Source: Spirochaetales bacterium | GTDB taxonomy: Bacteria > Spirochaetota > Spirochaetia > JABEVK01 | NCBI GenBank assembly: GCA_947478845.1 | Contig: CANJXC010000001.1 | Coordinates: 1 to 64,000, forward strand | DNA length: 64,000 bases | Reading direction: 5' to 3' | Shown: piece after piece, positions 40,894 to 59,310 of the stretch | Layout: each line of letters begins with the position of its first letter | How positions within the stretch are numbered: the first letter of the stretch is position 1 | The notes under the pieces: generated by a model | The model's input: the letters and a program-made list of their open reading frames with translations, nothing else | Told to the model about the DNA's origin: nothing | Databases searched by the model: none | Translations under genes and position numbers: made by a program

Positions 40894-41544
40894 ATGATTC
40901 GGGGGTTCCAAAGCGTCACCGTAACCCGGCTTGAGCTCTGGGGGCCAGAGACTTGGTTGCTTTGTTGGCCGCGTTCGTTTTCGTTTCTCGCCGGTCAAGT
41001 GGTAATCCTCACCTTGAAGCCCGGTGGTGCTGAACGCATTTTCAGTCTTGCTACCGGAGTCCGAGAGCCCGAAGCTGGGGTTTTGTTCAATTTAGTGGAA
41101 GACGGCGAGTTGACACCGGCCTTGGCTAATCTTCGCCCGGGTGACCTGCTCTGGGTCAGCGAGCCGTTCGGCTCTTTTCCCGGTCTGGAAGGTCCGGCGG
41201 TCTGGATTGCCAACGGTACGGGTGTCGCTCCCTTTGTTTCCATGGTTCGATCCGGTCTTGGGCAACAAAAAGTTCTCATTCATGGCGCAAGAAAACTCGC
41301 GGGATTTTTGGGTCGACAGGAGCTTGAGAACTTGCCCGGGCTCACCTATTATCGTTGTTGCACCGGTGAAGCCCATGAATTGGTCTTTTCGGGGCGTCTG
41401 ACTGAGTTCCTCGAACAGCGGTCTTGGGCTCCTTCCCAACGTTACCTCCTTTGTGGAAGTGCTCCCATGATCGTGGAAGTACGAGAATTGTTATTTCGCA
41501 AGGGTATTCCCTTTAGCCATATCCTCGCGGAGGTCTTTTTTTGA
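40894..41544 (+). CDS. Single-domain ferredoxin-NADP reductase-like flavoprotein (partner of RlmN?)
   Basis: A 216-residue protein of the FAD/NAD(P)-binding ferredoxin reductase fold, without an iron-sulfur domain. FAD-binding RxFS is in ERIFSLATG; the nucleotide-binding loop is NGTGVAPFVS; a second pocket is LLCGSAPMIVEV. The C-terminus ends with aromatics (EVFF), as in true FNRs, where the last aromatic stacks on the flavin. It probably moves electrons from NADPH. The rlmN start (TTG 41541) overlaps its stop codon by four bases. Two related genes (51231, 58672) precede miaB and lipA. Confidence 0.82.
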   Translation: MIRGFQSVTVTRLELWGPETWLLCWPRSFSFLAGQVVILTLKPGGAERIFSLATGVREPEAGVLFNLVEDGELTPALANLRPGDLLWVSEPFGSFPGLEGPAVWIANGTGVAPFVSMVRSGLGQQKVLIHGARKLAGFLGRQELENLPGLTYYRCCTGEAHELVFSGRLTEFLEQRSWAPSQRYLLCGSAPMIVEVRELLFRKGIPFSHILAEVFF

Positions 41545-42581
41545 CTGAATCAAAGTCTGTGTTTGGCATGACACTCGGCGAACTGCGCCTCTTGGCAGAA
41601 AGACTCGGAGCCCCTGCCTTTGTGGGCAACCAGCTCGCCAGATGGCTGTATCAAACGCAGGTTGCCTCGTTTGACGAAATGACGGACCTTGCCAAACCCT
41701 TGAGGACTAGACTTTCAGAAGATTATTCCATGGGTTTGGTTGCCCCTTCGAAAGTTGACGCTTCGATAGACGGAACACGGAAGTATCTCTTCCCGACGGG
41801 CAGCAAGTTCATTGAAGCGGCTTTTATTCCAGATGACGACCGAAACACTCTCTGTGTCAGTTCACAAGTTGGATGCAAGATGGGTTGCCTGTTCTGCATG
41901 ACGGCACGCCAGGGATTTCAGGCCCAGTTGTCATCTATGGAAATCCTGAACCAGGTTCGTAGCCTTCCGGAAATGTCGGCGCTGACAAACATTGTTTACA
42001 TGGGAATGGGCGAACCACTGGATAATCTGGAGAATACACTTAAAAGTCTTGAAATCCTGACCTCAGATTGGGGCATGCGCTTCGGAAACCAGAGGGTAAC
42101 TGTGTCTTCGATTGGCATGCTCCCGGCCCTCGAAGAGTTTTTTGCGCGCACACAGGTCCGTTTTGCCCTATCGATGCACACGCCCTTTGACGAGGAGCGC
42201 CAGCAACTTATGCCCGTACAACTGGTCCATCCGCTTCAGGGAATCTTGAAGTTCATGAAATCCGTTCAAGAATCGGACAACCGGCGACTGTCGATCGAGT
42301 ACATCTGCTTTGGAGGCGTGAACGACACTCCTCGCCATGTAAGGGAACTCGTTCGCATCCTCCACGGTTTGAAAGTGCGGGTGAACCTCATCCGCTTTCA
42401 TCCGATACCTGGGACCCCGCTCAAGGGGTCTAGTGAGCAGTCGATGCAAAAGATGAGGGACTCGCTTGCCGATAAAGGGATCCCTGCGACCGTACGAAAG
42501 TCGCGTGGCGAAGACATTTTTGCGGCTTGCGGCATGCTTTCAACCAAGGCGTTGTTGAAACCCGTTGAACTGGACTACTAG
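41541..42581 (+). CDS. rlmN: Dual-specificity RNA methyltransferase RlmN
   Basis: A 346-residue radical-SAM enzyme that methylates C2 of an adenosine in 23S rRNA and in some tRNAs. The iron-sulfur ligands are in VGCKMGCLFCMT (CxxxCxxC), the methyl-carrying cysteine is in DIFAACGML at the C-terminus, and the N-terminal domain is the accessory helical bundle. TTG 41541 overlaps the FNR stop (TTGA). Enzymes of this class need an electron to reduce the cluster; in E. coli flavodoxin and its reductase do this. Confidence 0.94.
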   Translation: MTESKSVFGMTLGELRLLAERLGAPAFVGNQLARWLYQTQVASFDEMTDLAKPLRTRLSEDYSMGLVAPSKVDASIDGTRKYLFPTGSKFIEAAFIPDDDRNTLCVSSQVGCKMGCLFCMTARQGFQAQLSSMEILNQVRSLPEMSALTNIVYMGMGEPLDNLENTLKSLEILTSDWGMRFGNQRVTVSSIGMLPALEEFFARTQVRFALSMHTPFDEERQQLMPVQLVHPLQGILKFMKSVQESDNRRLSIEYICFGGVNDTPRHVRELVRILHGLKVRVNLIRFHPIPGTPLKGSSEQSMQKMRDSLADKGIPATVRKSRGEDIFAACGMLSTKALLKPVELDY

Positions 42582-42717
42582 GAACTTCCTTCCTGTTTCC
42601 ACTCCAGTTTCAGGTGAGAGACACTGTCACGAAGATGCAAATTGAAAATCCCCAACAGAACAAGGAAACTGGGGTTCATGGACAAGCCTCTAGAGTTCCA
42701 GTATATGATGATTTGTC

Positions 42718-43647
42718 ATGACATGGACCACCTTCTTGCAGATCGTAGAGTTGCGCACGAAAATCGTCAGTATATCGACCTTTGTTCTCTCCGGCCTTTC
42801 AGTCTATTGGATCTACGGACAAATGCCGTGGTTGCTCGTCGTCCTTTTGTTTTTCACGGTTCTTGCCGTAGATATGGGCACTACCGCCTTCAACACCTTT
42901 TTTGACTTTGAACGCGGCGTAGACGATGCCAACACCAACCAAGAAGCTGACAAGGTCCTGATCCACCGAAAGACACCATCCGGCTACGCGCTTCTGGCCG
43001 CTTTGGCCTTGTTTGCTTTTGCAGGCGTTTTGGGTTTATTTTTGGCTCTTTGGAAAGGTTGGCCTCTTCTGGTGTTGGGAATTGTCAGTTTTTTTGTCGC
43101 GTACAGATATTCAGGAGGCAAGACACCGCTGAGTGCTACCCCGTGGGGAGAGTTCTTTGCTGGTTTGTTTCTAGGCTCGGTGTTATGGCTGGTAGTCTGT
43201 TTCACTTTGGCCCCCCCATCGGTCCCGACACCTGCATGGCAACCCGAGTTCTGGACCCGGCACCTGCTTGCCAGCCTCCCGTCGTTTTTCTTTATTGCCA
43301 GCATCTTGACCGTAAATAATGCCTGCGATCGAGAGGGTGACCGTACCTCCGGGCGCCAGACCCTGTCATTGGCTTTGGGACCGCGGGCAGATTTGTTGAT
43401 TGTGTTGTTGCCCTTGGCTGCCTACGTTACCATGATTGCCCAGTCACTTTTGGAACTCCTTCCCATTGGCATGACTTACGCAGCGCTGCTTGGATTAGCG
43501 CTCAGCATTCCAATCTGGAGGGCGATGTTTGAGCGGGGCTTCTCGCACCGTACCAAGGGAAGCAATATGGGTGATGTATCACGAAGTTTCTTGATTTTCA
43601 CCTTGTTTTCAGGGCTCGGGTTGTTTTCAGGAATAGTTCTCCGGTGA
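42718..43647 (+). CDS. UbiA-family prenyltransferase (MenA-like)
   Basis: A 309-residue integral membrane enzyme with about eight or nine helices. The two prenyl diphosphate motifs are NTFFDFERGVDD and NNACDREGDRTSGRQTLSL, the second like MenA (1,4-dihydroxy-2-naphthoate polyprenyltransferase). It would attach an isoprenoid tail to a quinone head group. Its -10 (TATGAT) lies eight bases before the ATG, so the mRNA may be nearly leaderless. No other men genes are in the window; the next gene overlaps its stop by four bases. Confidence 0.75.
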   Translation: MTWTTFLQIVELRTKIVSISTFVLSGLSVYWIYGQMPWLLVVLLFFTVLAVDMGTTAFNTFFDFERGVDDANTNQEADKVLIHRKTPSGYALLAALALFAFAGVLGLFLALWKGWPLLVLGIVSFFVAYRYSGGKTPLSATPWGEFFAGLFLGSVLWLVVCFTLAPPSVPTPAWQPEFWTRHLLASLPSFFFIASILTVNNACDREGDRTSGRQTLSLALGPRADLLIVLLPLAAYVTMIAQSLLELLPIGMTYAALLGLALSIPIWRAMFERGFSHRTKGSNMGDVSRSFLIFTLFSGLGLFSGIVLR

Positions 43648-44339
43648 AACTACTCTTCACTTTGTGCCTTCTCATTGCCTCCGCTGAGCTTTCCAGCGAA
43701 GTTTGGCCGCTTCCCATCCCGCTGGAAACCGGTCATTTGTTGGGGGCCGGCCGACCAGCTGGGAAGCCCCCAGTGCCCTTGGTGGATGAGCTATCAATTT
43801 TAGGAATGGGCTCCAACAATGTGATCGCTTTGCTGGAGAGGTCGCAGGTCGGCAGTTCTTGGAGGGTCCGTACCAAAGGACTAGATCTAGTCAATGATTC
43901 TGTACTTTGGCAACAGGACTGGGAAGACTGGGGCGACGACGATTTGTTTTCCCTCTGGTGGGAAACTCACAGAAATGAGATTTCTATTCCCCTACAGAGG
44001 TGGAAAATCAGCCCCCTCGACTATCAGTTGGGCGAGTTTCCAGTTATTCTCGACGAGGAGTACTATCTGGCATTTCTTCGCAGGACCAACGACGTTGCCA
44101 CGGGGTTGCTGGCAAGGCTTGAGGTGATTCTGCAATCCACAGGGCGCGGGGTAAAGACCGTACTAGACTTGACGGGTACGTGGAGGTGGGCGACTTTGCT
44201 CGGTTTTGTGCCGTCACCCTTCGAGAATCGCCTCGCGCTGGTGCTGCTGATTCAGCCTGAGGGTTGGGCCGGAGACCAGCAACCCCTGAGATTTCTGGTG
44301 ACAGGCGCAAGTCTTAAGGCTGGTTTCGAACTGCCTTGA
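43644..44339 (+). CDS. Exported hypothetical protein
   Basis: A 231-residue protein. An N-terminal signal LFTLCLLIASAEL suggests export; the rest contains many Trp and Leu residues and no motif I know. GTG 43644 overlaps the prenyltransferase stop (GTGA), so they are coupled. It might take part in the same membrane or quinone pathway, but this is only context. Mature form is probably about 213 residues. Confidence 0.6.
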   Translation: MKLLFTLCLLIASAELSSEVWPLPIPLETGHLLGAGRPAGKPPVPLVDELSILGMGSNNVIALLERSQVGSSWRVRTKGLDLVNDSVLWQQDWEDWGDDDLFSLWWETHRNEISIPLQRWKISPLDYQLGEFPVILDEEYYLAFLRRTNDVATGLLARLEVILQSTGRGVKTVLDLTGTWRWATLLGFVPSPFENRLALVLLIQPEGWAGDQQPLRFLVTGASLKAGFELP

Positions 44340-44384
44340 CGGAGGAGCCTTCTCCACCCTTTAATAATCTGACGAGGTTAATCT

Positions 44385-45830
44385 TTGGGGCTCCTCACTG
44401 CTTCTGAAAACATGCAAAATAAGCGTCTGGTTGAGATCCTCCAGGCAGAACTCACTGACGCCAATGTTCTTATCCAAAAACTAACCCAGAAACTGGAAGT
44501 GAACGAAGATTCGGGGCTTCCAAATGCGGTTGTCATGAACCGAGAGCTCGATGATTTGTTAAGATTGACACCCCACCCCAAGGCGGTACTTTTTCTTTCG
44601 CTTTCTGATCAATACACTGTCCTGAAACGGACTTCACCTAGCAAACCCCAATGGATTCTCTTCAATACGGCAATCCGGATTATGAACGTGGTGGGGGACA
44701 AGGGCCGTGTTAATCACACCAAAGACGAAGAGTTCCTGATCCTTTTGCAAGACCTTACAGAGCCGCAAGTGGCTACTGAAGTGGCGGCCGAAATCATCAA
44801 ACAGGTTAAGGAAGCGTATGTACTGAACGGACAGGCTATTTCGTTGGGCGTCAACATCGGAATCTCTTTTTACCCCGAACAAGGCGAAAGCAAATCGATT
44901 CTGCTTCGGCATGCCGACATTGCTCTTAGCGAAGCCATCAAGCACAAGAGTATTTATCAATTATTCACCCCTGAGTTAAGAGATCGGTTGATCGAAAAAG
45001 ATGAGCTCCAAAAGAAAATTCTGAGAGCCTTGGAAGCCAACAATTCTGATGGACGTCCGCAATTGATGCTTTTCTTTCAGCCACAAGTAGAAATCCACGA
45101 TTGGAACTCCCCCGGAAAGACGGGGCGAGTCGTAGGCGCTGAGGCTCTGATTCGCTGGAACCATCCCAACGATGGTTTTATTCCGCCTAGTAAGTTCATC
45201 CCTGTCGCGGAAGAAACCGGACTCATAGTCCACTTGGGAACTTGGATACTTCACACGGCAATTACGTGCCTCCAAGACCTCGCCACCCAGGGTTTCGACG
45301 GGATTACGTTGTCGGTAAACATTTCAAGTGAGCAATTAAACTTAGAAGACTTCATTCCGAGGATGAAGGAAATTGTCCGGCGTCTGAAGTCCAATGATCA
45401 CCAAATAAAACTGGAATTAACCGAGAGTGGAATGGTCAATGTGGATGACACCATTTCCAAGATCAACCAAATGAGAGAGTTGGGCTTCAAGGTTCTGTTA
45501 GACGACTTCGGCACCGGTTATTCGTCTCTTAGCTACCTAAAAAACCTCCCTATTGACGTGGTCAAGATCGATAAATCCTTCATAGACGGTGTGCCCGCAG
45601 GAGAAAAAGATACCGCCCTGACTCGCACAATTATTAATCTGGCCACGGAACTGAAGAAGGATATCGTGGTTGAGGGTACCGAAAATCGAGACCAAATTGA
45701 CTGGTTGTATGCCCATGGCTGTAAAGTTTTCCAGGGCTACTATTTCAGTAAACCACTGTCTTATGCCGACTTTCTTCACTACCTGAGGAACTTTCCCGCC
45801 ATCTTTGAGGCAAAATCGGCCATCATTTAA
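44385..45830 (+). CDS. EAL-domain c-di-GMP phosphodiesterase with degenerate GGDEF domain
   Basis: A 481-residue cytoplasmic protein. The N-terminal GGDEF-like domain (about residues 30-210) has KDEEFLIL where GGDEF should be, so cyclase activity is unlikely. The C-terminal EAL domain (about 215-475) is complete: VGAEALIRWNHP, SVNISSEQL, ELTESGMV, LDDFGTGYSS and VEGTENRDQI. It should hydrolyse c-di-GMP. TTG 44385 has GAGG seven bases upstream; ATG 44412 is the alternative. It converges on the CDF gene with an eight-base overlap of stops. Confidence 0.88.
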   Translation: MGLLTASENMQNKRLVEILQAELTDANVLIQKLTQKLEVNEDSGLPNAVVMNRELDDLLRLTPHPKAVLFLSLSDQYTVLKRTSPSKPQWILFNTAIRIMNVVGDKGRVNHTKDEEFLILLQDLTEPQVATEVAAEIIKQVKEAYVLNGQAISLGVNIGISFYPEQGESKSILLRHADIALSEAIKHKSIYQLFTPELRDRLIEKDELQKKILRALEANNSDGRPQLMLFFQPQVEIHDWNSPGKTGRVVGAEALIRWNHPNDGFIPPSKFIPVAEETGLIVHLGTWILHTAITCLQDLATQGFDGITLSVNISSEQLNLEDFIPRMKEIVRRLKSNDHQIKLELTESGMVNVDDTISKINQMRELGFKVLLDDFGTGYSSLSYLKNLPIDVVKIDKSFIDGVPAGEKDTALTRTIINLATELKKDIVVEGTENRDQIDWLYAHGCKVFQGYYFSKPLSYADFLHYLRNFPAIFEAKSAII

Positions 45831-46767
45831 GCGCCGAATGAGATTCAGGGAGGTCAAGGTGGGCATCATCGTGTCTAGTTTGGGTTTCAAGGTGAGTGGT
45901 TACGACAGCATTTGGGTAGGCCGCGATGACCAGCTTCTCAATCGATGTCGCTGTCTCGTGGGCTTGTGCGAGCAAGATATGGTCGTCAAAGAGCAGGTGG
46001 AACTGTATCCAGTACCGCGCGCCGGAATTGCGCACACGTAGCTCGTGGCTGTTTACTCCCTTTAATTGGCAGATCGAGTTGATAGTCTGCTCTATGGAAA
46101 GTTGTTCACCCTCCGTGACGATGTCCATAAGTCCGAGGAAAGATCGTCGAATAAGGGAAAAACCTTCTTTGATAATATTCAAAGCGGCCAAAATGGCGAA
46201 GATCGGATCAAAATACATGCTACTGAACCACGGGTTCTGGCCGAACATGCACAACAACAATCCGATCATGACCCCCAGTGAGGTTACACTGTCGGTGAGT
46301 ACGTGACGTCCATTAGCCTCAACGATGAACGAACCGTTCTTTTTTCCGCTCCAGATGAGCGCAAAACCCAAGAGGCCATTGATCACTACTACCAACGCTG
46401 AGATTCCCGTACCCAGACTCAGCTCTTGGATCTCTGGACCCGCCAGAATTTTTCGTACCGCTTCGAAGAGGATATACCCGGCGGCCAAAATGATCATAGC
46501 TCCTTCAAAGCCGGCTGAAAAGAAGGTGATTCGATCGTAGCCAAACTGGTGGGACTTGTCCGAGACTCTTCTGGCCAAGCGAAGGCTCCATGCCGCAAAG
46601 GTAACGGCCACCACATGTACCACGGACTCGGCGGCGTCAGAGAGGATAGCCGCTGACCCGGTAACGACGGTGGCATACATTTTTATCCCCAGCATCAGGA
46701 ACCCAGTTACGAGAGAGATGTTCATCATGAGGTCAAGTTGACGGTCTTTATTGGAAGTACTACTCAT
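45823..46767 (-). CDS. Cation diffusion facilitator family transporter
   Basis: A 314-residue membrane protein with five or six helices and a cytoplasmic C-terminal domain. The metal site residues are in ILSDAAESVVHVV and HVLTDSVTSLGV (HxxxD). The C-terminal His-rich tail (THLETQTRHDDAHLDLPESH) may sense metal. It exports Zn2+, Fe2+, Mn2+ or a similar ion by proton exchange; the metal is not predictable. ATG 46767 overlaps the rarA stop by four bases, so it is likely in one operon with rarA. Confidence 0.85.
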   Translation of the reverse strand: MSSTSNKDRQLDLMMNISLVTGFLMLGIKMYATVVTGSAAILSDAAESVVHVVAVTFAAWSLRLARRVSDKSHQFGYDRITFFSAGFEGAMIILAAGYILFEAVRKILAGPEIQELSLGTGISALVVVINGLLGFALIWSGKKNGSFIVEANGRHVLTDSVTSLGVMIGLLLCMFGQNPWFSSMYFDPIFAILAALNIIKEGFSLIRRSFLGLMDIVTEGEQLSIEQTINSICQLKGVNSHELRVRNSGARYWIQFHLLFDDHILLAQAHETATSIEKLVIAAYPNAVVTTHLETQTRHDDAHLDLPESHSALK

Positions 46768-48878
46768 GACCCAAGTGCCTCTTTTACCCCTATGAGCCAG
46801 CTCACCCTCCAGTCGAGAGACCCTCCAGGGCAGTGGGAACCAATGACTCGCAGATGAGGGAGCAATTCAGGAGCCTGCTCTAAGATAAAGTCCGGCCAGC
46901 TTCCAGGGCGTCCTGGAGTCCACCAACTTTTCCAGTCTTTCGTTGCAAGAGAACGCTTACTGGTCGAAGAAAAATGGTGAACCTGAAAGTTTTGGTCCTG
47001 CAAGAGCGTAGTGGGATTGCGTTGCCCGAGGAACTCCCGTTCGAGCGAATACAACCGCTGAAAAACCTCTTCTCCCAAGGAGACCCGGTCTAACCAGGCT
47101 ACGAGGCTGACCCCGTCAGCAAGGTCAGGCTCGACAACCACCGAGCGACCTACTTCCTGTCCAGCAAGGCCCTCAAGAACTCGCGATAATCCCCACGCCA
47201 GCATCACTTCAAAACGGTTAGTTTCCGAAAGAACTCCCCAGCCGAGTCCCTCTAAATAGGGTTTCTGCAGCTCAGGAAGGTCATTGAGTCGGTCGGACAG
47301 TTCCTTAGCCGAGCCTTCATCCCGGCAGCTTACCCAAACCCCGCCTTCTGGCGCCAAAAGCAGCGTTCTGGCCACGAAAAGTCCTTTTGGATCGGCTGCA
47401 ATCCAGACTCTGCTGTGACGCAAGATACCTGCAAGTCGAAAGACCTCGGCGACCAGCTCAGTAAATGAACCAAGGTTTTGCCTTTCCAGCCGCCTAAGCC
47501 AAGGCGAGCGCAAGGGCTCGGACCAAGTCAGGTTTTCTGGCTCAGGCTCCGTGTCGAGATTCATCATCCACGTCCGGCGCGCCAGGACCTCAGGCTTTAA
47601 ATGCCCCTCATAGCCAAGATCGCCAGGGTGATAAAATACGAGGGCTTCCAGTTGGGAAGGGAGGTAGCGCTGTTTCACCCAATGACCTTCAAAAGCATGG
47701 GGATAAAGGTAGTTTTTGCCGTGTCCCAAGGCAGCTCCATCGCGGCTACCATCTTTGAGCGCCGAGGGAACCTGACCGTCTCCCGCGGTCTCGAGAGACT
47801 TGAGCGCCTCAAAGTATCCGGAGGTGCTATTGCTTTTAGGACAAGTCGCCAAGTAAAGTGCTGCCTGAGCCAAGTGATATTGACCTTCAGGCATACCCAC
47901 CTTACGGAAAGCTTCCGAGGCCGCATTCACGATTCCTAAGGCCCCTGGTTCCGCTAGCCCCACATCTTCTGAAGCAAGAATCAGCATCCGCCGCAACAGG
48001 TAGTCCGGATCCTCACCCGCACGGATCATCCGGGCCAGCCAATAGAGGGCTGCGTCAGGGTCACTCCCACGCAACGACTTAATGAAGGCGGAAATCGAGT
48101 CGAAATGGTAATCTCCATCCTTATCGTAGAGGACAGCTCGCTTCTGAATGCTTTCTTCGGCCATAGCAAGGGAAATAACAACACTGGTTCCAGGAGGCGG
48201 TGGAAAAGGTGTCACCGATGATTCGATGGCTAGTTCCAAGGCGTTGAGCAAGCTCCGAGCATCGCCGGAAGCCATTTTGACCAAATGTTCCAGCGCGTCT
48301 GGTTCAAAAGCTACTGCCAAAAGCCCGTAACCGCGCTCCGGATCAGAAACCGCCTGTCGGGCAATCTCCATCAACTCTCCATCGCTGAGCGGTAACAACT
48401 GAAAAATTCGACTTCGGGAAACCAAAGCGGCATTGACCTCAAAAAAAGGATTTTCCGTTGTTGCACCGATGAGGATGAAGGTGCCGTCTTCTACCCAGGG
48501 AAGTAAGGCATCCTGCTGAGTTTTGTTCCAGCGGTGGACTTCATCAACGAAAAGAATGGTCTTTTGCCCCTGTAATTGCCTCACATCTTTTGCCTTGTCG
48601 ATAAGTTCCCGGATGTCTTTCACCCCTGAAAGAACTGCGCTCACCGACAGAAACACTCCGCGGGTTGCCTGTGCGATGACTCTCGCCAGTGTTGTCTTTC
48701 CGGTGCCCGGAGGGCCTGAAAAAAGGACGCTGGTGAGTTTATCCGCTTCGATAGACCGGCGTAGCAGTCTGCCGGGAGCCAGGATATGGTCCTGTCCCAC
48801 ATATTCGGCCAGGCTTCTCGGGCGCATCCGGCTGGCCAAAGGTTCGTAATTTCTGACTTTCGACAGGAAAAGGTCCAC
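46764..48878 (-). CDS. RarA/MgsA-type AAA ATPase fused to a C-terminal domain
   Basis: A 704-residue protein. Residues 1-425 are a full RarA (MgsA) clamp-loader-like ATPase: GPPGTGKTTLARVIAQ, FVDEVHRWNKTQQD, ATTENPFFEVN, and YLYPHAFEGHW. It acts at stalled forks. Residues 426-704 are an extra domain with no motif I can read. A RarA/unknown-domain fusion of this layout is known from other bacteria. GTG 48878 has no ribosome-binding site, and a promoter sits directly upstream. The CDF gene is coupled. Confidence 0.88.
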   Translation of the reverse strand: MDLFLSKVRNYEPLASRMRPRSLAEYVGQDHILAPGRLLRRSIEADKLTSVLFSGPPGTGKTTLARVIAQATRGVFLSVSAVLSGVKDIRELIDKAKDVRQLQGQKTILFVDEVHRWNKTQQDALLPWVEDGTFILIGATTENPFFEVNAALVSRSRIFQLLPLSDGELMEIARQAVSDPERGYGLLAVAFEPDALEHLVKMASGDARSLLNALELAIESSVTPFPPPPGTSVVISLAMAEESIQKRAVLYDKDGDYHFDSISAFIKSLRGSDPDAALYWLARMIRAGEDPDYLLRRMLILASEDVGLAEPGALGIVNAASEAFRKVGMPEGQYHLAQAALYLATCPKSNSTSGYFEALKSLETAGDGQVPSALKDGSRDGAALGHGKNYLYPHAFEGHWVKQRYLPSQLEALVFYHPGDLGYEGHLKPEVLARRTWMMNLDTEPEPENLTWSEPLRSPWLRRLERQNLGSFTELVAEVFRLAGILRHSRVWIAADPKGLFVARTLLLAPEGGVWVSCRDEGSAKELSDRLNDLPELQKPYLEGLGWGVLSETNRFEVMLAWGLSRVLEGLAGQEVGRSVVVEPDLADGVSLVAWLDRVSLGEEVFQRLYSLEREFLGQRNPTTLLQDQNFQVHHFSSTSKRSLATKDWKSWWTPGRPGSWPDFILEQAPELLPHLRVIGSHCPGGSLDWRVSWLIGVKEALGS

Positions 48879-48884
48879 AAAAAA

Positions 48885-48913
48885 AGTGTACTCGGTCTTT
48901 CATTTTTCCACAA
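48885..48913 (-). promoter_or_regulatory. Leaderless promoter of the rarA fusion gene
   Basis: On the minus strand TTGTGG (48913-48908), a 17-base spacer, TACACT (48890-48885), then six T residues and the GTG start at 48878. No ribosome-binding site is possible. The divergent chemoreceptor gene at 48951 has a Shine-Dalgarno site (GAGGAG). Confidence 0.65.
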
Positions 48914-48950
48914 ATACTCTAGAATCAGGCGGTATGTGAGGAGTGACACC

Positions 48951-51193: not shown

Positions 51194-51222
51194 TTGACGC
51201 CTCCTTTTTTTTGCCCTACTTT
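51194..51222 (+). promoter_or_regulatory. Promoter of the FNR-miaB operon
   Basis: TTGACG (51194-51199), exactly 17 bases, TACTTT (51217-51222), then eight bases TGTGACCT and ATG 51231. No ribosome-binding site lies between, so the mRNA is predicted to be leaderless or nearly so. Confidence 0.65.
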
Positions 51223-51230
51223 TGTGACCT

Positions 51231-51887
51231 ATGATCGTAGTTCAGGCGCCTTACAGGGTCCACGGAGTCGAGGAAGTTGCCCCCGGGTTGTTTGTTTTGA
51301 GTTTCGATCGAAATGGTCTGGAGTTTGAGACTGGACAATACCTTAGCCTTGGTATTCCGGGACATCGCAAGGAGCGTGAGTACTCAATCTACTCTTCAGA
51401 AAGCGATACCCATTTGGCGGTGCTGATCAAAGTCGTTCCCGAGGGTGCGATGTCGAGCAAACTGGTGGAGCTTAAGCAGGGAGACTTATTGCATGTTTCG
51501 GGACCTTACGGCTACTTCCTCCTTAAACCTTCCCTTGACGCTGGGGTTCCGTTGCTCTGGATTGCCACAGGATCGGGAGTCTCACCGTTCCACTCCTTTG
51601 CTTCGACTTACCCGGTGAGCGAGTATCATTTGTTTCATGGGACCAGAACCTTAAATGAAAGGGTCTTAGTGCGGAATTTTCCCCCCAAGAGCGTGGTTTC
51701 CTGCGTCTCGGGGGAATCTGGGGGTGATTTTCACGGTCGAGTGACCACTTACCTGTCCACTTGGGAGTTGGACCGGTCTACCCATGTGTTCCTATGCGGT
51801 AATTGTGACATGATCTATGATGCGTTCGATCTGCTGCAGGCCAAGGGAGTTCCAGCGGCTCAAATCCTAACGGAAGTTTACTACTAG
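51231..51887 (+). CDS. Single-domain ferredoxin-NADP reductase-like flavoprotein (partner of MiaB?)
   Basis: A 218-residue FNR-type protein. FAD motif RxYS is in EREYSIYSSES; the nucleotide loop is ATGSGVSPFHSF; the second pocket is FLCGNCDMIYDA. It ends EVYY, an aromatic C-terminus. The residues after the RxYS motif differ clearly from the other two FNR-like proteins of the window, so they are divergent paralogues. MiaB starts seven bases after its stop, with AGGAG across the junction. I infer a reductase that serves MiaB. Confidence 0.82.
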   Translation: MIVVQAPYRVHGVEEVAPGLFVLSFDRNGLEFETGQYLSLGIPGHRKEREYSIYSSESDTHLAVLIKVVPEGAMSSKLVELKQGDLLHVSGPYGYFLLKPSLDAGVPLLWIATGSGVSPFHSFASTYPVSEYHLFHGTRTLNERVLVRNFPPKSVVSCVSGESGGDFHGRVTTYLSTWELDRSTHVFLCGNCDMIYDAFDLLQAKGVPAAQILTEVYY

Positions 51888-51894
51888 GAGCTGC

Positions 51895-53211
51895 ATGAAA
51901 TACTTCATCATGAATCTCGGCTGTCAGATGAATCAGGCTGACTCAGAACGCATTCAGTCAGTTCTTGAAACTATGGGGCTGGTGAAGACTGAGATGGAGG
52001 CAGAAGCATCGGTGCTCGGTGTTGTGGCCTGCTCTGTCCGGCAAAAAGCCATCGACAAAGTTCACAGCAAGATTCATGAATGGAACGAGCGAAAGCAAGG
52101 GCAGAACCTGTTGACCTTCCTCTCGGGTTGCATTCTTCCGGCCGACGAAGACGCCTTTCTGCGCAAGTTCGATGTTGTCTTCCCCATCAAGGACTTATCC
52201 CGTGTTCCTGAGTTGTTGCGAGGATCAGGCATAGTGACACCGCTGAGTCAGGCCCCCCAGCCCGACGCAACCGGAATGGAGCACTTCTGGAACGTGAAGC
52301 CACAATACTCCAGTACTTTTGAGGCTTTTGTTCCGATCCAGAACGGGTGCGACAAGTTCTGCACTTTTTGTGCGGTACCCTATACTCGTGGTAGGGAAGT
52401 CTCACGGCCTTCGCAGGCCATTTTGGAAGAGGTCCGGAATCTTGTCGACCGTGGCTACAAAAGTATTACTCTGCTGGGACAAAATGTGAACAGCTACGGT
52501 CTTGACAAGCCAGGGGTTGAGCGTTCCTTTACGGAACTTCTCCAGGAAATCGGCGAGTACGGAAAAACTTCAGGCCGAAAGTTTTGGGTGTATTTCACCT
52601 CGCCGCATCCACGTGACATGGGGCGTGATGTCTTGGAGACTGTGGCACGTTATGAAGTTCTGGCAAAGCACATTCATTTGCCGTTACAGTCGGGTGACGA
52701 CAAAGTGTTGATCCGTATGAACCGCAATCACTCAATGGACCGCTACCGCACCATTGTCCACGAGGTCCGCGAGTTGTTACCAGATGCAACTCTCATTACT
52801 GACATTATTGTGGGCTTTACTGGTGAGACTGAAGAGCAGTTTGAGAACACGAGGCTTGCGATGAGAGAGTTTGGGTACCAAATGGCGTTTGTGGCTCCCT
52901 ATAGTCCGCGCCCGGGTGCGGCCTCAGCACGCTGGAGTGACGATGTTCCGCTACCAACAAAGAAAGAACGCCTGCGTGTGTTGACCGAAGAATTGCACCT
53001 TAGTTCGCTTGCATACAACCAACGGCTCGTCGGGTCAAAGTTAAGGGTCCTTGTCGAGAGATCCGACAGGAAAGAGGGTTATCTCGCAGCACGAACCGAG
53101 GGGAAGATACCTATAAGGTTTGCTTCCACAGATCTGACTCTCGTAGGTCAGTTTGCCGAAGTGTTGGTAGAGTCGGTACGCCCACTTTCGATGGAGGGAC
53201 AACTCCTTTGA
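51895..53211 (+). CDS. miaB: tRNA-2-methylthio-N6-adenosine synthase (MiaB-type)
   Basis: A 438-residue methylthiotransferase. The N-terminal cluster cysteines are in NLGCQMNQADSERI, VVACSVRQKA and LSGCILPA. The radical-SAM motif is NGCDKFCTFCAVPYTRG. The MiaB hallmark LLGQNVNSYG is present, and a C-terminal TRAM domain follows (residues about 375-438). It adds a methylthio group to isopentenyl-adenosine 37 of tRNAs. RimO is less likely given the LLGQNVNSYG block. The FNR gene upstream is coupled. Confidence 0.93.
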   Translation: MKYFIMNLGCQMNQADSERIQSVLETMGLVKTEMEAEASVLGVVACSVRQKAIDKVHSKIHEWNERKQGQNLLTFLSGCILPADEDAFLRKFDVVFPIKDLSRVPELLRGSGIVTPLSQAPQPDATGMEHFWNVKPQYSSTFEAFVPIQNGCDKFCTFCAVPYTRGREVSRPSQAILEEVRNLVDRGYKSITLLGQNVNSYGLDKPGVERSFTELLQEIGEYGKTSGRKFWVYFTSPHPRDMGRDVLETVARYEVLAKHIHLPLQSGDDKVLIRMNRNHSMDRYRTIVHEVRELLPDATLITDIIVGFTGETEEQFENTRLAMREFGYQMAFVAPYSPRPGAASARWSDDVPLPTKKERLRVLTEELHLSSLAYNQRLVGSKLRVLVERSDRKEGYLAARTEGKIPIRFASTDLTLVGQFAEVLVESVRPLSMEGQLL

Positions 53212-53265
53212 AGCTCGGAGTTGTTTCACTTGGTAGCAGCTCTAAAATGCCGATGGGGGAGCAAG

Positions 53266-54411
53266 ATGGATTTAGAGAATCATTTCAGAATACTCGTTGT
53301 CGACGATGTACCGGCCAATATCCTGGTAGTAAAGTTGCTCCTCGAAGCAGAAGGATACGCAGCGTTTGGAGCAACTAGCGCCGCTGCCGCCAGAGAGTAC
53401 CTAGAAACCGACCCAGTCGACCTTATTCTGCTCGATGTGATGATGCCTGAAGTGAGCGGTTTTGAGTTTGCCCGTGAACTTGCCGCCGAACCTGAGCTCT
53501 GCTTCGTTCCGGTAATCTTCCTCTCGGCGTTACAGGAGAGCAATGAGATTGCAACAGGGTTGGACTCAGGGGGAGTCGACTATATCTCAAAGCCTTTCCG
53601 AAAACCGGAGTTGCTGGCCCGGGTGAGAACCCATCTTCAGCTCAGTCAGTCTCGAAAGCAACTGCGGGAGCAAAACCTCCTCCTCGAGCGTTTGGCCCGC
53701 GAGGCGCGCGAGGCCAGCCAGGCGAGAGACAAGTTTGTCGCGATTTTGGCTCATGACCTAAGGAACCCTTTTTCCGGTATTCTGTCGTTGGTCACCGAAA
53801 TGGAGTTCAACTTGGACCAGTTCAGTCCTGAAGAACTTCGCGATGCGGTTCAGTCCGTGTATAACTCAACCAGACAGGTTAGTGACCTCCTGCATTCGCT
53901 TCTTGAGTGGGCCCAAACGCAAACGGGAGCCCAAGTCATTCACAAGAATATGCATTCCGTGGAGGACTTAGTGAATCAGGCCTTGAAACCGTTAACAGGA
54001 ATGATCGGTAAGAAAGAGCTGAAAGTTACCCAGAGCATCAACAACTGCCAAGTCTGGGCCGATGAGAACACCCTATTAGTGATATTTCGCAATCTGCTTT
54101 CAAATGCTATTAAGTTCACGCCACGCGGCGGATCGATCCGGGTGGAAGGATTAAACGAGGGAGAGCATACTGTAGTTTCCATTCGCGACTCAGGAGTTGG
54201 AATTTCGGCTCAAACGATTTCCGAACTTTTCAGACTCGACATCCGCACGACAACAGCCGGAACGGAGAGTGAGTCAGGAAGTGGCTTGGGTCTCCTGCTT
54301 TGCAAGGAGTTCATCGAGAGAAATGACGGTTCGCTCGAAGTTGAAAGTCAGTTGGGTCAAGGTTCTCTTTTCAGGGTCAGACTTCCCTCCAACAAGGACA
54401 TCAAAGTATGA
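53266..54411 (+). CDS. Response-regulator/histidine-kinase hybrid
   Basis: A 381-residue cytoplasmic protein. A receiver domain leads (ILVVDDVPANILVVKLLL, phospho-aspartate in LILLDVMMPEVSGFE, DYISKPF). A coiled linker then joins a HisKA domain with the phospho-histidine in ILAHDLRNPFSG and an ATPase domain with N box NLLSNAIKFTPRGG, DSGVGIS and GSGLGLLLCKEF. Receiver-first kinases of this layout occur in many bacteria; the partner is not here. ATG 53266 follows GGGGGAG. The hslO gene begins after its stop. Confidence 0.9.
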   Translation: MDLENHFRILVVDDVPANILVVKLLLEAEGYAAFGATSAAAAREYLETDPVDLILLDVMMPEVSGFEFARELAAEPELCFVPVIFLSALQESNEIATGLDSGGVDYISKPFRKPELLARVRTHLQLSQSRKQLREQNLLLERLAREAREASQARDKFVAILAHDLRNPFSGILSLVTEMEFNLDQFSPEELRDAVQSVYNSTRQVSDLLHSLLEWAQTQTGAQVIHKNMHSVEDLVNQALKPLTGMIGKKELKVTQSINNCQVWADENTLLVIFRNLLSNAIKFTPRGGSIRVEGLNEGEHTVVSIRDSGVGISAQTISELFRLDIRTTTAGTESESGSGLGLLLCKEFIERNDGSLEVESQLGQGSLFRVRLPSNKDIKV

Positions 54412-54475
54412 GACACCGAAGGGAACTTACGCGGGAGATGACTTTATTGGATGCGTGGATGAGGGCGGTCAACCT

Positions 54476-55408
54476 GTGATCAAGGTCAAGACAAAAAGAA
54501 AACCTAAGGAATATCTGATAGACCGTGCTCGAGACCGTCAAACGCAGTTTTTACTCAGTAACGGTGCCGTGCGAGGTACGTGGGTTCAGGCAAACTTGGT
54601 TCTCGAAGAAATGGCTCTCAACCATGAGCTTGGCCCGTTCGAAACCCTGATTCTAGGTCAGGCCTATGTGGCTGCGCTCCTCATGGCCTCGACACTGAAA
54701 GGAGAAGACCGCTTTAACCTCAGCATCTCCGTCGACGGTCCAGTGAAAGGCTTTTCGGTTGACGCCAACGCGTTTTGTGCCGTACGCGGTTATCTGCTGG
54801 AAAATCCGATCCGTATACCTACAGACTGGAAAGATGTGGAACTTCCAAAAGTGCTGGGAAGCGGTACTCTCACCTTGACACGTTTTCTGGAACGGAAAAC
54901 CGCGCCGATGAGTGGCACGGTAGAATACCTACCCAACTCCTTGGCTGAAAGTCTAGCCTACTACTACCAGCAGTCGGAGCAGACACCGTCGGCATTCGTG
55001 CTCAGCCTGCCTTTCGACAGGGAGGGGAACCTGCTCGGTGGCGGCGGACTGATGTTGCAGGCGATGCCCGGTTCGTCCGTGGAAGAATGGGACCATCTTT
55101 TACTACGTCTAAGGACCCTTCCCAGTGTTGGCGAAAATGCCGCTGAAAGTCATGAACCTTCGGCGTTGCTCGATTTCTGGTTTTCAGATCTTCACCCTCA
55201 GGTTATGGAATCGAGGCGGGTGGAGTTCTTCTGCGAATGTTCAAAACAGAAGTTCTCAAAGGTCCTCACCACACTTCCCGCCGAAGATCGCACGGAGATT
55301 CTCTCCAAGGGCCCATTCCCCATGGAAACGACCTGCCACCACTGTAATTCAGCTTATTGGTTTGAGCGGGCCGAACTTGAGGCCATTTGGTCCAAACTCT
55401 CAGATTGA
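54476..55408 (+). CDS. hslO: Redox-regulated chaperone Hsp33
   Basis: About 310 residues. The core has LGPFETLILGQAYVAALLMAS and VDGPVKGFSVDANAFCAVRGYL. The C-terminal zinc switch is intact: FFCECSKQKF (CxC) and TTCHHCNSAYWF (CxxC), which disulfide-bond under oxidative stress to activate the holdase. The start is uncertain: GTG 54476 with GAGGGCGG seven bases upstream is preferred; GTG 54455 is the next option. It lies about 65 bases after the kinase gene, and a terminator hairpin follows. Confidence 0.9.
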   Translation: MIKVKTKRKPKEYLIDRARDRQTQFLLSNGAVRGTWVQANLVLEEMALNHELGPFETLILGQAYVAALLMASTLKGEDRFNLSISVDGPVKGFSVDANAFCAVRGYLLENPIRIPTDWKDVELPKVLGSGTLTLTRFLERKTAPMSGTVEYLPNSLAESLAYYYQQSEQTPSAFVLSLPFDREGNLLGGGGLMLQAMPGSSVEEWDHLLLRLRTLPSVGENAAESHEPSALLDFWFSDLHPQVMESRRVEFFCECSKQKFSKVLTTLPAEDRTEILSKGPFPMETTCHHCNSAYWFERAELEAIWSKLSD

Positions 55409-55409
55409 T

Positions 55410-55434
55410 CAGGGGGGCTGAAAGCGCCCCCCTG
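55410..55434. terminator. Bidirectional hairpin between hslO and the PEGA gene
   Basis: CAGGGGGGC (55410-55418) pairs with GCCCCCCTG (55426-55434): nine GC-rich pairs, seven-base loop. It sits between the two convergent stops. No T-tract follows on the plus strand, so strength is uncertain. Confidence 0.65.
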
Positions 55435-55444
55435 AGAGGAACCA

Positions 55445-56584
55445 CTATCGCGACTCGGACAACAGATCGACCACCGATCGTGGCACTAGGGTGATGGTTC
55501 TACCGGCTTGCACTGTAACCTTGGCCTCAGCAAATGCGATGCCCGCTTCGAGTCGAATCAGGTAAACACCCTGTGGTAGTGCCAGTTGCAACGGTTTATC
55601 TTTCTGTTCAACGCCATTGACGAAGACCTTCACCATGCGGGCTGCATTGCCACCGACCCATTCGTCGGTCTTGATGATGACCGTTCCGAAATCTGGCACC
55701 AAGGCGACTGTAAGTGTCGTTTCGTTTGCGGGCATCAAGAAAGCTTGGCTGAAGATCCGGTAACCAACAGCGGAAACCGTGACAGTATGATTTCCAGGGC
55801 TCAAGGGTACCGGAAAGTTTGCCACCGGGACGTTATCGATACTGACTGCAGCGCCAACGACGTTGATGCGTACTGAAAAGGGAAAACTTGCCGGCGTGAG
55901 TGTCACTGGAATCGACAAACCTCGGGTGTTCTGCGTGAAAGACTGGGAATACGAGTTATAGCCGGGAGCACTTACTGTAAGGACATGGTTGCCTGCAGTG
56001 ATCATCGCAGGGGTGCTAACGGTGACATTGTCAACCTGAATTGTGGCCCCAGAAACATTGACGATGACGTTTAAGGGGAATACGGCTGGCTGAAGACTGA
56101 CGTTGATGGTTGTGGCGTTGCTAGGCATGTTGAAAGCTTGGGTCCATGAAAGGAATCCCGGGGCCACTACCGTAAGAGTATGCGCACCCGATTCGATCGC
56201 TACCGGATTCGAAGCAGCAACCTGATTGTCGATTTGTATCGAAGCTCCGGGGACGTTCACTTGGATAGTCAGAGGGAAAAGTGCTTTCGGAGCAATTTTC
56301 GTGTAGGGTATCGCCAAATCAGAATTGACATTAAGAGGAATATTCTTCGTCGGCTGACCCGGACTCAGAAACCCAAGCACATGTTGGCCAGGCTTTACAT
56401 AGACCGTAACCGGCAGTTCTCCGGCTGATTCGCCATCAATTGTTACTGTGACACCAGTGGTGTTTGCGGTTAACCTCAGCTCAAACATTCCACCTTGTCG
56501 TGTCATCGAGAAGGCCTGGCTTGAAACTTCCGCCATTGAACCGAGCATCATTAGCACAGAAAGAACAGAGGTGATCTTTTTCAT
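55445..56584 (-). CDS. Exported protein with several PEGA repeats
   Basis: A 379-residue secreted protein. A signal peptide (SVLSVLMMLGSMAEVSSQA) leads five or more tandem PEGA-type beta modules of about 68 residues, each ending in a PG/AG-H-x-LTV-x-APG-type segment (for example AGNHVLTVSAPGYNSYSQ, PGNHTVTVSAVGYRIFSQ). PEGA domains are common in surface proteins. No membrane anchor or enzyme motif is seen. CAAGGAG precedes the ATG. It converges on hslO at the hairpin. Confidence 0.82.
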   Translation of the reverse strand: MKKITSVLSVLMMLGSMAEVSSQAFSMTRQGGMFELRLTANTTGVTVTIDGESAGELPVTVYVKPGQHVLGFLSPGQPTKNIPLNVNSDLAIPYTKIAPKALFPLTIQVNVPGASIQIDNQVAASNPVAIESGAHTLTVVAPGFLSWTQAFNMPSNATTINVSLQPAVFPLNVIVNVSGATIQVDNVTVSTPAMITAGNHVLTVSAPGYNSYSQSFTQNTRGLSIPVTLTPASFPFSVRINVVGAAVSIDNVPVANFPVPLSPGNHTVTVSAVGYRIFSQAFLMPANETTLTVALVPDFGTVIIKTDEWVGGNAARMVKVFVNGVEQKDKPLQLALPQGVYLIRLEAGIAFAEAKVTVQAGRTITLVPRSVVDLLSESR

Positions 56585-56653
56585 GGCGACTCCTTGGCAA
56601 AAACCTAATCGGCATCCTAATGCGAACCGATCTCAAAAGCAAGGAACTGAAGC

Positions 56654-57460
56654 TTAAGACCGCAGATGACCGGCCCCCCGCAAAGTCCAATCTCGGTCTG
56701 AAAACTTGAGTTGTTCCCTTTCCTTAGCCACGGAGACTTCATGCGGAGTCAAGGTGTCTGGTTCAAGGTCGATGCCGAGGATCCTTGAAAGATTATTCGA
56801 AAGAGCAGACTGCAAATCGGCTCGTGAACCGACGTAGCCAAGGTCCAAAAGGCTCGTGATCTGTTGCACATTGGGAAGAGCCGCAGGGAGAAAAAGAGCC
56901 ACCATCGACGGCCAGTCTAGCGACAAAGGTATTGAACCATGCTGAAAAATAATATGGCGATCTCGTCGCTGGGCGTTTCCCCCAAGTTTTTTGCCCTCAA
57001 CCAATATGTCGTAGGCCTCTTTCCCAGCAAAACAGGCCGGTGTAACCGATCCAAACGCTTGCCCTGTGATCCCTGAATCCTTGGCAAAAAGAGCTACCCA
57101 TCCAAGTTCTTTCCAAGTCTCGACCAAAAATCCGCAGATTTTCTCATAGGTGGACTTTACGTCGCTGTTCCCAAAGAACCCTGAAGGGAAACCCAAGCTA
57201 TAGGTAAGTTCATCGGCGTGCCAAATAGCTCCTCCACCTGTCGGCCGGCGAACAGAGGGTACCTGCTCAAGAATACCGTCGTACAGGCCTGCTATTGGAT
57301 TCTGGAAACGCCCCAGGGACAAGCAGGCTGGTTCCCAGGCGTAAAGTCGAAAAAATGGTCGCCCTCCGGGTCGGGCCAAACTTTCCGTCAACACTTCATC
57401 CACAGCCATGTTCCATGATCCCGGCGCAGGGGGGTCTTGGAATAATCTCCATTTCTTCAC
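56654..57460 (-). CDS. lipM: Octanoyltransferase LipM-type (lipoate ligase fold)
   Basis: A 268-residue protein of the biotin/lipoate protein ligase fold. Markers: RRPTGGGAIWHADELTYSL, the cysteine of the thioester intermediate in VTPACFAGKEAYD (C143), and GKKLGGNAQRR followed by FQHGSIPL. The cysteine position fits LipM rather than LplA or LipB. It would move octanoyl from acyl carrier protein to GcvH. It follows gcvH with a four-base overlap. Confidence 0.82.
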   Translation of the reverse strand: MKKWRLFQDPPAPGSWNMAVDEVLTESLARPGGRPFFRLYAWEPACLSLGRFQNPIAGLYDGILEQVPSVRRPTGGGAIWHADELTYSLGFPSGFFGNSDVKSTYEKICGFLVETWKELGWVALFAKDSGITGQAFGSVTPACFAGKEAYDILVEGKKLGGNAQRRDRHIIFQHGSIPLSLDWPSMVALFLPAALPNVQQITSLLDLGYVGSRADLQSALSNNLSRILGIDLEPDTLTPHEVSVAKEREQLKFSDRDWTLRGAGHLRS

Positions 57461-57822
57461 AAGTCAGTCATCCAAGTTCGCCACGCCTTTTCATCCAGCA
57501 GAGTTCCCAAAAACTCATCTTCCGATGCAATTTCCAGAATCCAAGCTTCGTCTTCAGGCGAAGAGTTCATGAGGCCGGGTGTTTGGCTCAGAAGCGTATT
57601 GACGGAGATGATACGTCCAATTATGGGAGAATAGAAATCGGTGGCTGCCTTGACAGCTTCAAGAACCGCTGAGGGTGATTCACCACCTGCGAGCGCACCG
57701 ATCTTAGGGAGTTCGATGAACGTGATTTCTCCCAAGGCATCCACATTTTCCCGGGATAGACCTACCCGGTAGTGGCTGCCAAACTTTTCGAGCCACTCAC
57801 CAGACTTGGTAAACATCTTCAC
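57457..57822 (-). CDS. gcvH: Glycine cleavage H protein (lipoyl carrier)
   Basis: A 121-residue lipoyl-domain protein. The lipoylated lysine is K58 in AVLEAVKAATDFYSPIIG. Glycine cleavage P and T genes are not nearby. In LipM-type pathways GcvH is the first octanoyl acceptor, and octanoyl or lipoyl groups then move on to other enzymes. It overlaps lipA upstream and lipM downstream by four bases each, so all are translated together. Confidence 0.9.
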   Translation of the reverse strand: MKMFTKSGEWLEKFGSHYRVGLSRENVDALGEITFIELPKIGALAGGESPSAVLEAVKAATDFYSPIIGRIISVNTLLSQTPGLMNSSPEDEAWILEIASEDEFLGTLLDEKAWRTWMTDL

Positions 57823-58679
57823 TCTGACACCTCCGACGCACGATACGAACTCCGGACCAAAGGCCCTGAGGCCACATGGGCAAACCCCAGTTCCAGGGCC
57901 TTGCGTTTAAGGGATTCAAACTCTGCGGGAGAATAGTATCTGCTTACCGGGAGGTGATGAGTTGTCGGCTGGAGATATTGCCCCAAAGTCAGAAAGTCAG
58001 TGCCTACCTCACGGAGATCCAAGAAAGCCTGCTCGAGTTCCTCTTCAGACTCGCCAAGACCCACCATCAGGCTGGATTTGGTACGTAGCAGGTGCTTTGA
58101 CTTGTAGTATTTGAGGCAGTCCAGCGTTTTTTTATAGCCGGCCCGAATGTCTCTCACCCTGTGGGTCAAGCGTTCCACGGTTTCCAAGTTCTGACCTACC
58201 ACGTAGGGACGGGACCTAGCCAAAATGTCCATCAGGCTTTCATCGGCACTGAAGTCGGGAACGAGAGCTTCCACTTTGGTTCCGGGATACCTCTTGTGCA
58301 ACTCCTCAATAACCTCTGCAAAATGCCCGGCTCCCTGATCAGGAAGATCATCTCTATCGACGCTTGTAAGGACGATGTACGCCAGCCCCATAGTTGCCAC
58401 CATGTCCACGGCGTTTTCGATTTCCCGGGAATTGACGACTGCCCTAGGATTACCTGTTTTCACATGACAGAAACGGCAGCCTCGGGTGCAAGTGTCTCCG
58501 AGAAGCATGATTGTGGCAGTCCGGGTGCTCCAACATTCATTGAGGTTGGGACACGAAGCTTCAACGCAGACGGTGTGGAGGCCCTTCTGGCTGAGTTTTA
58601 CCCTCAGGTCGTGGAAGTCATCTGTCTTCCTACCTTGTATTTTGAGCCATTCCGGTTTCCGCACTAGGATGTCAGCCAA
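57819..58679 (-). CDS. lipA: Lipoyl synthase
   Basis: About 286 residues. The auxiliary cluster ligands are CVEASCPNLNEC, the radical-SAM cluster CTRGCRFCHV, and the C-terminal serine ligand in VRSSYRASE. It inserts two sulfurs into octanoyl chains. I chose TTG 58679 with GAGGAGAG upstream; the longer ATG frames lie inside the FNR gene. The start overlaps the FNR stop (58672) by eight bases, so reductase and LipA are tightly coupled. Confidence 0.94.
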   Translation of the reverse strand: MADILVRKPEWLKIQGRKTDDFHDLRVKLSQKGLHTVCVEASCPNLNECWSTRTATIMLLGDTCTRGCRFCHVKTGNPRAVVNSREIENAVDMVATMGLAYIVLTSVDRDDLPDQGAGHFAEVIEELHKRYPGTKVEALVPDFSADESLMDILARSRPYVVGQNLETVERLTHRVRDIRAGYKKTLDCLKYYKSKHLLRTKSSLMVGLGESEEELEQAFLDLREVGTDFLTLGQYLQPTTHHLPVSRYYSPAEFESLKRKALELGFAHVASGPLVRSSYRASEVSE

Positions 58680-59310
58680 AAAAACTCTCCTCATGAACTC
58701 TACCCAAAAGAATTCCTCGTGCCAGCAGGCCCTCACGGCAGGCGCGAACCATCGCTCCGTTGCCACAGATAAAATACTCCCTCAATGGATCAAGGGGAAA
58801 GCCCGGTTCTTCGACCGAAACTCGGCGCGAGACCTTGTGGCGAGAGAATCTCCATTCCACCCGACATCTCGATTCGAGAAAACTATGGAAATAGGCCTCT
58901 TCTGAATTGCGCACGCCCACGTAAAGTAAAGCACTCCTAGGGGGATTTGATCCCCTCAAGCACGAAAGAAAAGGCGCCAAGCCCGTTCCCGTGGCCAGCC
59001 AGATCTCGTTCGGGCAAAGACCGGGGGAAAACAGGCCAAAAGGGGTACCGACACCTACCTCGTCTCCTGTTTTTCTCCCAGCTAGCCAATGGCTGAACTG
59101 ACCTGCATGAGACCTACCGGAAACCCGCTTGACGAGAAACCTTAGCTCCGGTTGATCGGGATGCGAGGAGAAACTGTAAGGTCGGGAATCGACCTGATCA
59201 TCGCGGATCAGAAGGGTACAAGCGCCAGCACCGTACATCAGTCCATCTCGCTCGATGATCAGCTCAAATGCATCAGGAGTGAGCCAGTCGACCCCCAGAA
59301 CCCTTGCCAA
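58672..59310 (-). CDS. Single-domain ferredoxin-NADP reductase-like flavoprotein (partner of LipA?)
   Basis: A 212-residue FNR-like protein. FAD motif in SRPYSFSSHPD, nucleotide loop LATGTGLAPFLSC, and second pocket YFICGNGAMVRAC. It ends ESFFG, with aromatics close to the end. Starts with TTG 59310, five bases after ppiC. Sequence similarity to the other two window FNR-like proteins is limited to these motifs. Its place at the head of lipA-gcvH-lipM implies that it supplies electrons to LipA. Confidence 0.82.
   Translation of the reverse strand: MARVLGVDWLTPDAFELIIERDGLMYGAGACTLLIRDDQVDSRPYSFSSHPDQPELRFLVKRVSGRSHAGQFSHWLAGRKTGDEVGVGTPFGLFSPGLCPNEIWLATGTGLAPFLSCLRGSNPPRSALLYVGVRNSEEAYFHSFLESRCRVEWRFSRHKVSRRVSVEEPGFPLDPLREYFICGNGAMVRACREGLLARGILLGRVHEESFFG

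Follow-up and report, generated by a model that had tools for sequence, protein, structure and literature searches.

What does it mean that every radical S-adenosylmethionine (SAM) enzyme encoded in one stretch of spirochaete DNA has a small flavoprotein gene directly in front of its own? The stretch, called the window below, is 64,000 nucleotides long and lies on contig C1 of the 2.99-Mb genome (completeness 99.75%) of a Spirochaetales bacterium. A first-pass annotation, made from the sequence alone, had recognized RlmN, MiaB and LipA as the three radical-SAM enzymes of the window, had noted that each gene is directly preceded by a gene for a ferredoxin-NADP reductase (FNR)-like protein of 212–218 residues and that no such gene lies elsewhere in the window, and had proposed dedicated reductases. 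The arrangement is as it was described: a PF04055 search gives exactly three radical-SAM genes, a PF00175 search of the 64,000-nt window gives no further FNR-like gene, and the open reading frames (ORFs) meet with a 4-base overlap at RlmN, a 7-base gap at MiaB and an 8-base overlap at LipA (Table 1). We consider it probable that the three FNRs are members of a so far unnamed family of compact (~210–220 amino acids, aa), single-unit reductases of the FNR superfamily, predicted to use flavin adenine dinucleotide (FAD) and reduced nicotinamide adenine dinucleotide or its phosphate (NAD(P)H), and that this family feeds electrons to a small set of enzymes that require them, radical-SAM enzymes above all, through partner-specific paralogues.

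Table 1. Paired flavoprotein and radical-SAM genes of the window, and the genes behind lipA. pLDDT, predicted local distance difference test; TM, template modelling score.
Feature	Coordinates	Strand	Basis
FNR-like flavoprotein, RlmN type	40894..41544	+	ORF, 216 aa; PF00175 30.8 bits; RlmN-FNR clade 100/99
RlmN, radical-SAM rRNA/tRNA adenine C2-methyltransferase	41541..42581	+	346 aa, TTG start 41541; TIGR00048 322.5 bits vs cut-off 290
FNR-like flavoprotein, MiaB type	51231..51887	+	218 aa; PF00970 47.8 bits; AlphaFold pLDDT 92.9, TM 0.87 to 5tr9
MiaB, radical-SAM tRNA methylthiotransferase	51895..53211	+	438 aa, ATG 51895; TIGR00089 378.5 bits; TIGR01574 352.1 vs cut-off 355.3
FNR-like flavoprotein, LipA type	58672..59310	-	ORF, 212 aa; PF00175 22.4 bits; pLDDT 90.0; LipA-FNR clade 98/91
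LipA, radical-SAM lipoyl synthase	57819..58679	-	286 aa, TTG start 58679; TIGR00510 349.2 bits vs cut-off 310.25
GcvH-like lipoyl carrier protein, following lipA in its cluster	57457..57822	-	ORF position
LplA/LipB-type octanoyl or lipoate transferase, following gcvH in that cluster	56654..57460	-	ORF; family named by sequence appearance only

RlmN and LipA score above their NCBIfam equivalog cut-offs; MiaB lies 3 bits below that of TIGR01574 and far above the cut-off of the MiaB/RimO subfamily TIGR00089, and the CxxxCxxC motif is present in all three enzymes. All three flavoproteins contain the FAD- and NAD-binding domains of the FNR superfamily (PF00970/PF00175), some of them below the Pfam cut-off, and lack an N-terminal [2Fe-2S] ferredoxin domain, matching only the FAD/NAD part of BenC/MmoC. 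AlphaFold gave confident models of the MiaB and LipA types (Table 1); the former has the FNR fold, and its best PDB matches are FNRs. The RxYS/RxFS, GTGxxPF and CGxxxM motifs and the C-terminal aromatic residue, close to the set that the first reading had picked out as shared, are invariant or near-invariant columns in an alignment of 32 sequences. Since identity to the MiaB-linked FNR is only 32% for the RlmN-linked and 28% for the LipA-linked protein, the three are old paralogues and not recent copies, again as first supposed. The CGNCDM form of the nicotinamide-side motif, which contains a CxxC, was seen in 20 of the 26 MiaB-type FNRs of the class set, and the RlmN types have no CxxC.

The pairing recurs in related and unrelated genomes. 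In the window's family, a search of 41 genomes with a reading of neighbourhoods showed pairs of the FNR with RlmN, MiaB, LipA and CtaA in several members; the RlmN and MiaB pairs turned up in other families also. A class-wide profile search hit 49 of 247 genomes, from 26 of 101 genera; compact members scored at least ~140 bits and other FNRs at most ~120, the exception being one partial copy at 110. Of the 64 non-redundant copies in this class-level sample, 53 have a radical-SAM gene as a neighbour. Among these, 45 stand immediately before it in the same orientation, at distances of -3 to 114 bases (26 precede miaB, 14 rlmN and 5 lipA), and 8 adjoin lipA in another orientation; of the rest, 5 stand with ctaA, mnmG or sufU, and 6 have no recognized partner. 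Outside the window's family the usual order is lipA (divergent), fnr, miaB and a second methylthiotransferase gene, which is MtaB in the loci tested. A scan of a genome collection with the MiaB-type FNR, a query that is biased to MiaB and shows the reach of the MiaB pair rather than its relative frequency, yielded 223 relatives. The best 80 of these belong to Spirochaetota, Bacteroidota (many Prolixibacteraceae), Kiritimatiellota and Verrucomicrobiota, and in 75 of the best 80 miaB lies downstream on the same strand within 700 bases. The FNR-RlmN pair was found in Spirochaetota, Bacteroidota (Bacteroidales strain 6E) and Kiritimatiellota (Pontiellaceae). Five Prolixibacteraceae genomes, strain 6E and two Pontiellaceae genomes have three FNR copies each, one of which precedes rlmN in Pontiellaceae and in strain 6E. 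Across the Bacteroidota at large the family is rare (1 of 296 genomes), so that its lateral spread is likely.

Chance pairing is ruled out by this recurrence and by the genome itself: with 8 radical-SAM domain matches and 12 PF00175 matches in the whole genome, at least three direct pairings would arise with p ~4e-6 (8 + 12 domains, ~2,800 genes assumed). Gene fusions were considered as a further proof and discarded, since the large open frames look like upstream reading-frame extensions without a second domain; the FNR and radical-SAM genes are separate in every locus inspected, and no fusion was seen there. Around the pairs, the order FNR-LipA-GcvH-octanoyl/lipoate transferase is kept in G001, G002, G003 and G005 (G, C and L numbers are our handles for genomes, contigs and loci). 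In G006 (L115:3649-7232) the GlgC-FNR order is retained and RlmN is replaced by putative AbiEi/AbiEii toxin-antitoxin genes, and in Pontiellaceae a divergent MiaE gene adjoins an FNR-RlmN pair.

The phylogeny of the flavoproteins follows their partners. In a tree of 105 FNR sequences (IQ-TREE, C20 mixture), in which long branches make the exact branching within groups unsure, 17 RlmN-linked and 6 unlinked FNRs from three phyla form one group (support 100/99), the 5 LipA-linked FNRs another (98/91) and the CtaA-linked FNRs a third (99/93). The MiaB-linked FNRs are a broad background group, which contains the CtaA-adjacent, MnmG-adjacent and some LipA-adjacent copies. Partner labels change 22 times on the tree, compared with 57 times when shuffled. 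This phylogeny supports the idea that the paralogues may be partner-specific.

The flavoprotein and its partner also co-occur as gene families, even where the genes lie apart. Searching from MiaB alone, we defined as one subtype the proteins at least 55% identical to the window MiaB; the subtype is present in 13 of 45 class genomes and in 7 of 45 genomes of Draconibacterium's order. The FNR lies directly upstream of the subtype gene in 7 of those 13 and 6 of those 7 genomes, and in four more genomes it is found elsewhere, unlinked. Counted by genome, 11 have both the subtype and the FNR family, 2 + 2 have one alone and 30 have neither (p = 5e-7); counted by family, which removes shared ancestry only partly, the table is 8, 1, 1, 18 (p = 2e-5). 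The window MiaB itself is of this subtype. As a functional association, the view of these proteins as dedicated reductases is well supported.

The association is selective. The remaining five radical-SAM genes, which encode MoaA, HemW, RimO and two activating-enzyme-like proteins, stand elsewhere in the genome without an FNR neighbour; this rules out a pairing of every radical-SAM enzyme. A fourth compact FNR (230 aa; G000:C13, L013:4759-6370, - strand) overlaps the end of the gene for the heme A synthase CtaA (PF02628). This copy, and others with MnmG, SufU and TrhO, rule out a rule confined to radical-SAM enzymes; because the fourth paralogue is paired with CtaA, the theme is electron-requiring enzymes rather than radical SAM as such. 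What stands of the initial proposal of dedicated reductases is the linkage and the partner-following clades; as a general radical-SAM arrangement it does not hold, given the unpaired enzymes and the other partners. In these other settings, the next gene after the fourth FNR/CtaA pair is plsC-like, with identical order in G002 (L051), and a CtaA-type FNR adjoins a SufU/NifU_N Fe-S scaffold gene in G003 (L049:3267-4466, +). In G015 and G071 (L118:4947-7590, L119) an FNR gene is directly upstream of that for MnmG, an FAD-dependent tRNA modification enzyme, and the MiaB of G015 is elsewhere in the genome. At three Pontiellaceae loci (L242, L243, L233) one FNR copy precedes a TrhO-like (UPF0176/rhodanese) gene.

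Based on the fold and the clients, we propose the following route. NAD(P)H would pass a hydride to FAD, and within a transient complex electrons would then move one at a time from the reduced flavin to the cognate enzyme, where they would reach the [4Fe-4S] cluster or, in CtaA, the heme; this delivery would start SAM cleavage in the radical-SAM clients. The clients would be MiaB, with MtaB and LipA in the ancestral gene cluster, and RlmN, with further paralogues for LipA and heme A synthase in the window's family, and translational coupling may provide the partner-specific paralogues in near-equal amounts. Gene content further suggests that the compact FNRs, split into MiaB, RlmN, LipA and CtaA paralogues, may carry electrons from NAD(P)H straight to their Fe-S (and heme) enzymes, with neither ferredoxin nor flavodoxin in between, a possibility to which we give a little less than an even chance. 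There is a precedent for direct transfer in the radical-SAM enzyme PapB: given FPR and NADPH but no flavodoxin, it converted ~45% of its substrate, and with flavin mononucleotide (FMN) and NADPH its turnover was complete (PMC10470005). Where a carrier exists, the FNR might first reduce that small carrier.

Several observations weigh against the proposal. The window's genome encodes a flavodoxin (PF00258, L136), so that a carrier is available, and a pyruvate:ferredoxin oxidoreductase (1192-aa frame, POR_N); together they rule out that this genome lacks any low-potential carrier. The RlmN-type FNRs of Prolixibacteraceae no longer adjoin rlmN, and in Prolixibacteraceae and strain 6E another FNR copy is flanked by a Flavodoxin_5 (HemG-like) gene and upp (L229, L222, L227, L230-L232). 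In G041 and G052 the MiaB subtype occurs without a compact FNR. An FNR persists in the Borrelia-like genome G128, whose only PF04055 match is below the cut-off and has no CxxxCxxC. HmuF, a flavoprotein encoded beside a radical-SAM gene, is not the one-electron donor of that enzyme (PMC10404700). With regard to G128, its orphan FNR gene (L104:5001-5654) is near a BesB-like gene, and its HemW homologue (L365:5026-6174) is without CxxxCxxC.

The strongest alternative, unlikely in our judgement yet to be taken seriously, is that the compact FNRs are ordinary NAD(P)H:flavodoxin/ferredoxin reductases, that a shared carrier serves the radical-SAM enzymes, and that the pairing reflects co-expression of paralogues that are not partner-specific. 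Besides the flavodoxin of the window's genome, the closest structures, which are Fpr-type flavodoxin/ferredoxin reductases, fit this explanation, and so does the MiaB of T. maritima, which is served by FNR and ferredoxin according to a work cited in PMC10470005. One reductase would be enough for such a scheme, yet three to four diverged paralogues track their partners. A flavodoxin domain is found in 16 of 18 FNR-bearing genomes, which fits the alternative; against it, the domain is missing from two, including G015, and the matches in G018 and G019 are confined to frames that exceed the length of a free flavodoxin, with one of the two scoring under the family cut-off. The G019 assembly (1,275,382 bases, or 1.28 Mb; completeness 96%) is informative here. 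Its radical-SAM genes comprise only miaB and mtaB, directly behind the FNR gene, and lipA elsewhere. Motif scans covering 99.9% of the assembly, with 4% of the genome missing, found RnfC-like and succinate dehydrogenase-type [4Fe-4S] proteins, an NqrF-like reductase and rubredoxin only, and no free ferredoxin or flavodoxin. Because no such carrier was found, the gene content favours direct transfer in G019, where the compact FNR may act on its client itself, subject to the 4% of missing sequence and to the motif-based nature of the scan.

It is distinctly improbable, though it has points in its favour, that the FNRs act elsewhere than on the SAM-binding cluster: in the assembly, repair or reduction of auxiliary clusters or persulfides of the sulfur-inserting enzymes, or on a product or a substrate. 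HmuF sets the precedent for a neighbouring flavoprotein whose role is a different one (PMC10404700). The ancestral cluster does contain the sulfur-inserting LipA, MiaB and MtaB, one FNR copy adjoins the scaffold SufU, and the CxxC of CGNCDM is frequent in MiaB-type FNRs and not found in RlmN types. However, RlmN, with a single cluster and no sulfur insertion, is paired, as is CtaA, which is no Fe-S enzyme, whereas the sulfur-inserting RimO is unpaired in this genome. That the gene order of housekeeping genes is coincidental or merely conserved, without a functional tie, can practically be dismissed: the family is patchy, as its rarity in Bacteroidota indicates, and the miaB block may have been laterally inherited as a unit, but partner changes repeatedly land on electron-requiring enzymes, the FNR and the MiaB subtype co-occur when unlinked, and the pair is maintained across four phyla.

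We therefore return to the proposal of a compact FNR family with partner-specific paralogues and to its significance. For most radical-SAM enzymes the electron donor used in the cell is not known, and the common E. coli flavodoxin/Fpr pair has been described as unlikely to be universal (PMC10470005); the compact FNRs are candidates for this role with MiaB, RlmN, LipA and heme A synthase. We found no published account of an FNR/radical-SAM pairing in the literature searched, outside of which lay most subscription journals. FNR deletion would be possible in cultured hosts (Draconibacterium orientale, Maribellus and Mariniphaga), NAD(P)H-driven assays could take the place of dithionite, and the paralogues offer natural cognate and non-cognate pairs for mapping how a flavoprotein docks on a radical-SAM cluster. 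If the carrier-free reading is true, the supply of electrons in these bacteria would be wired enzyme by enzyme, with a client list overlapping that of the mitochondrial ferredoxins.

Known systems resemble this arrangement in part. The compact FNRs share with Fpr (E. coli 1fdr, Neisseria 5tr9) the fold, with TM 0.82–0.87 by query length, and the RxYS FAD motif, the GTGxxPF and CGxxxM NAD(P)H motifs and the C-terminal aromatic residue, but they are ~30 residues shorter and 21–27% identical, and one genome holds several paralogues, each next to a client of its own. Their best profile match in PDB and NCBIfam is the reductase part of BenC/MmoC (1krh, 1tvc), and the oxygenase reductases are likewise dedicated to one enzyme; in contrast, the compact FNRs have no [2Fe-2S] ferredoxin domain and no oxygenase, their clients being radical-SAM enzymes or CtaA. 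In the E. coli flavodoxin/Fpr system, NADPH-derived electrons similarly reach the [4Fe-4S] cluster via flavins (PMC10470005), but one general pair serves all enzymes there, whereas here each client would have a reductase to itself, perhaps without any carrier. In TYW1, too, a flavin module serves a single radical-SAM enzyme of tRNA modification (PMC9186531); that module is a fused flavodoxin fold, whereas the FNR fold is encoded here by a separate gene and has several clients. The mitochondrial FDXR with FDX1/FDX2 recalls the client list: the human ferredoxins serve LIAS, heme A synthesis and ISCU, which overlap with lipoyl synthase, heme A synthesis and the Fe-S scaffold in the present case (PMC10470009). 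There, however, one reductase works with two ferredoxins, whereas here it is the reductase itself that has been multiplied.

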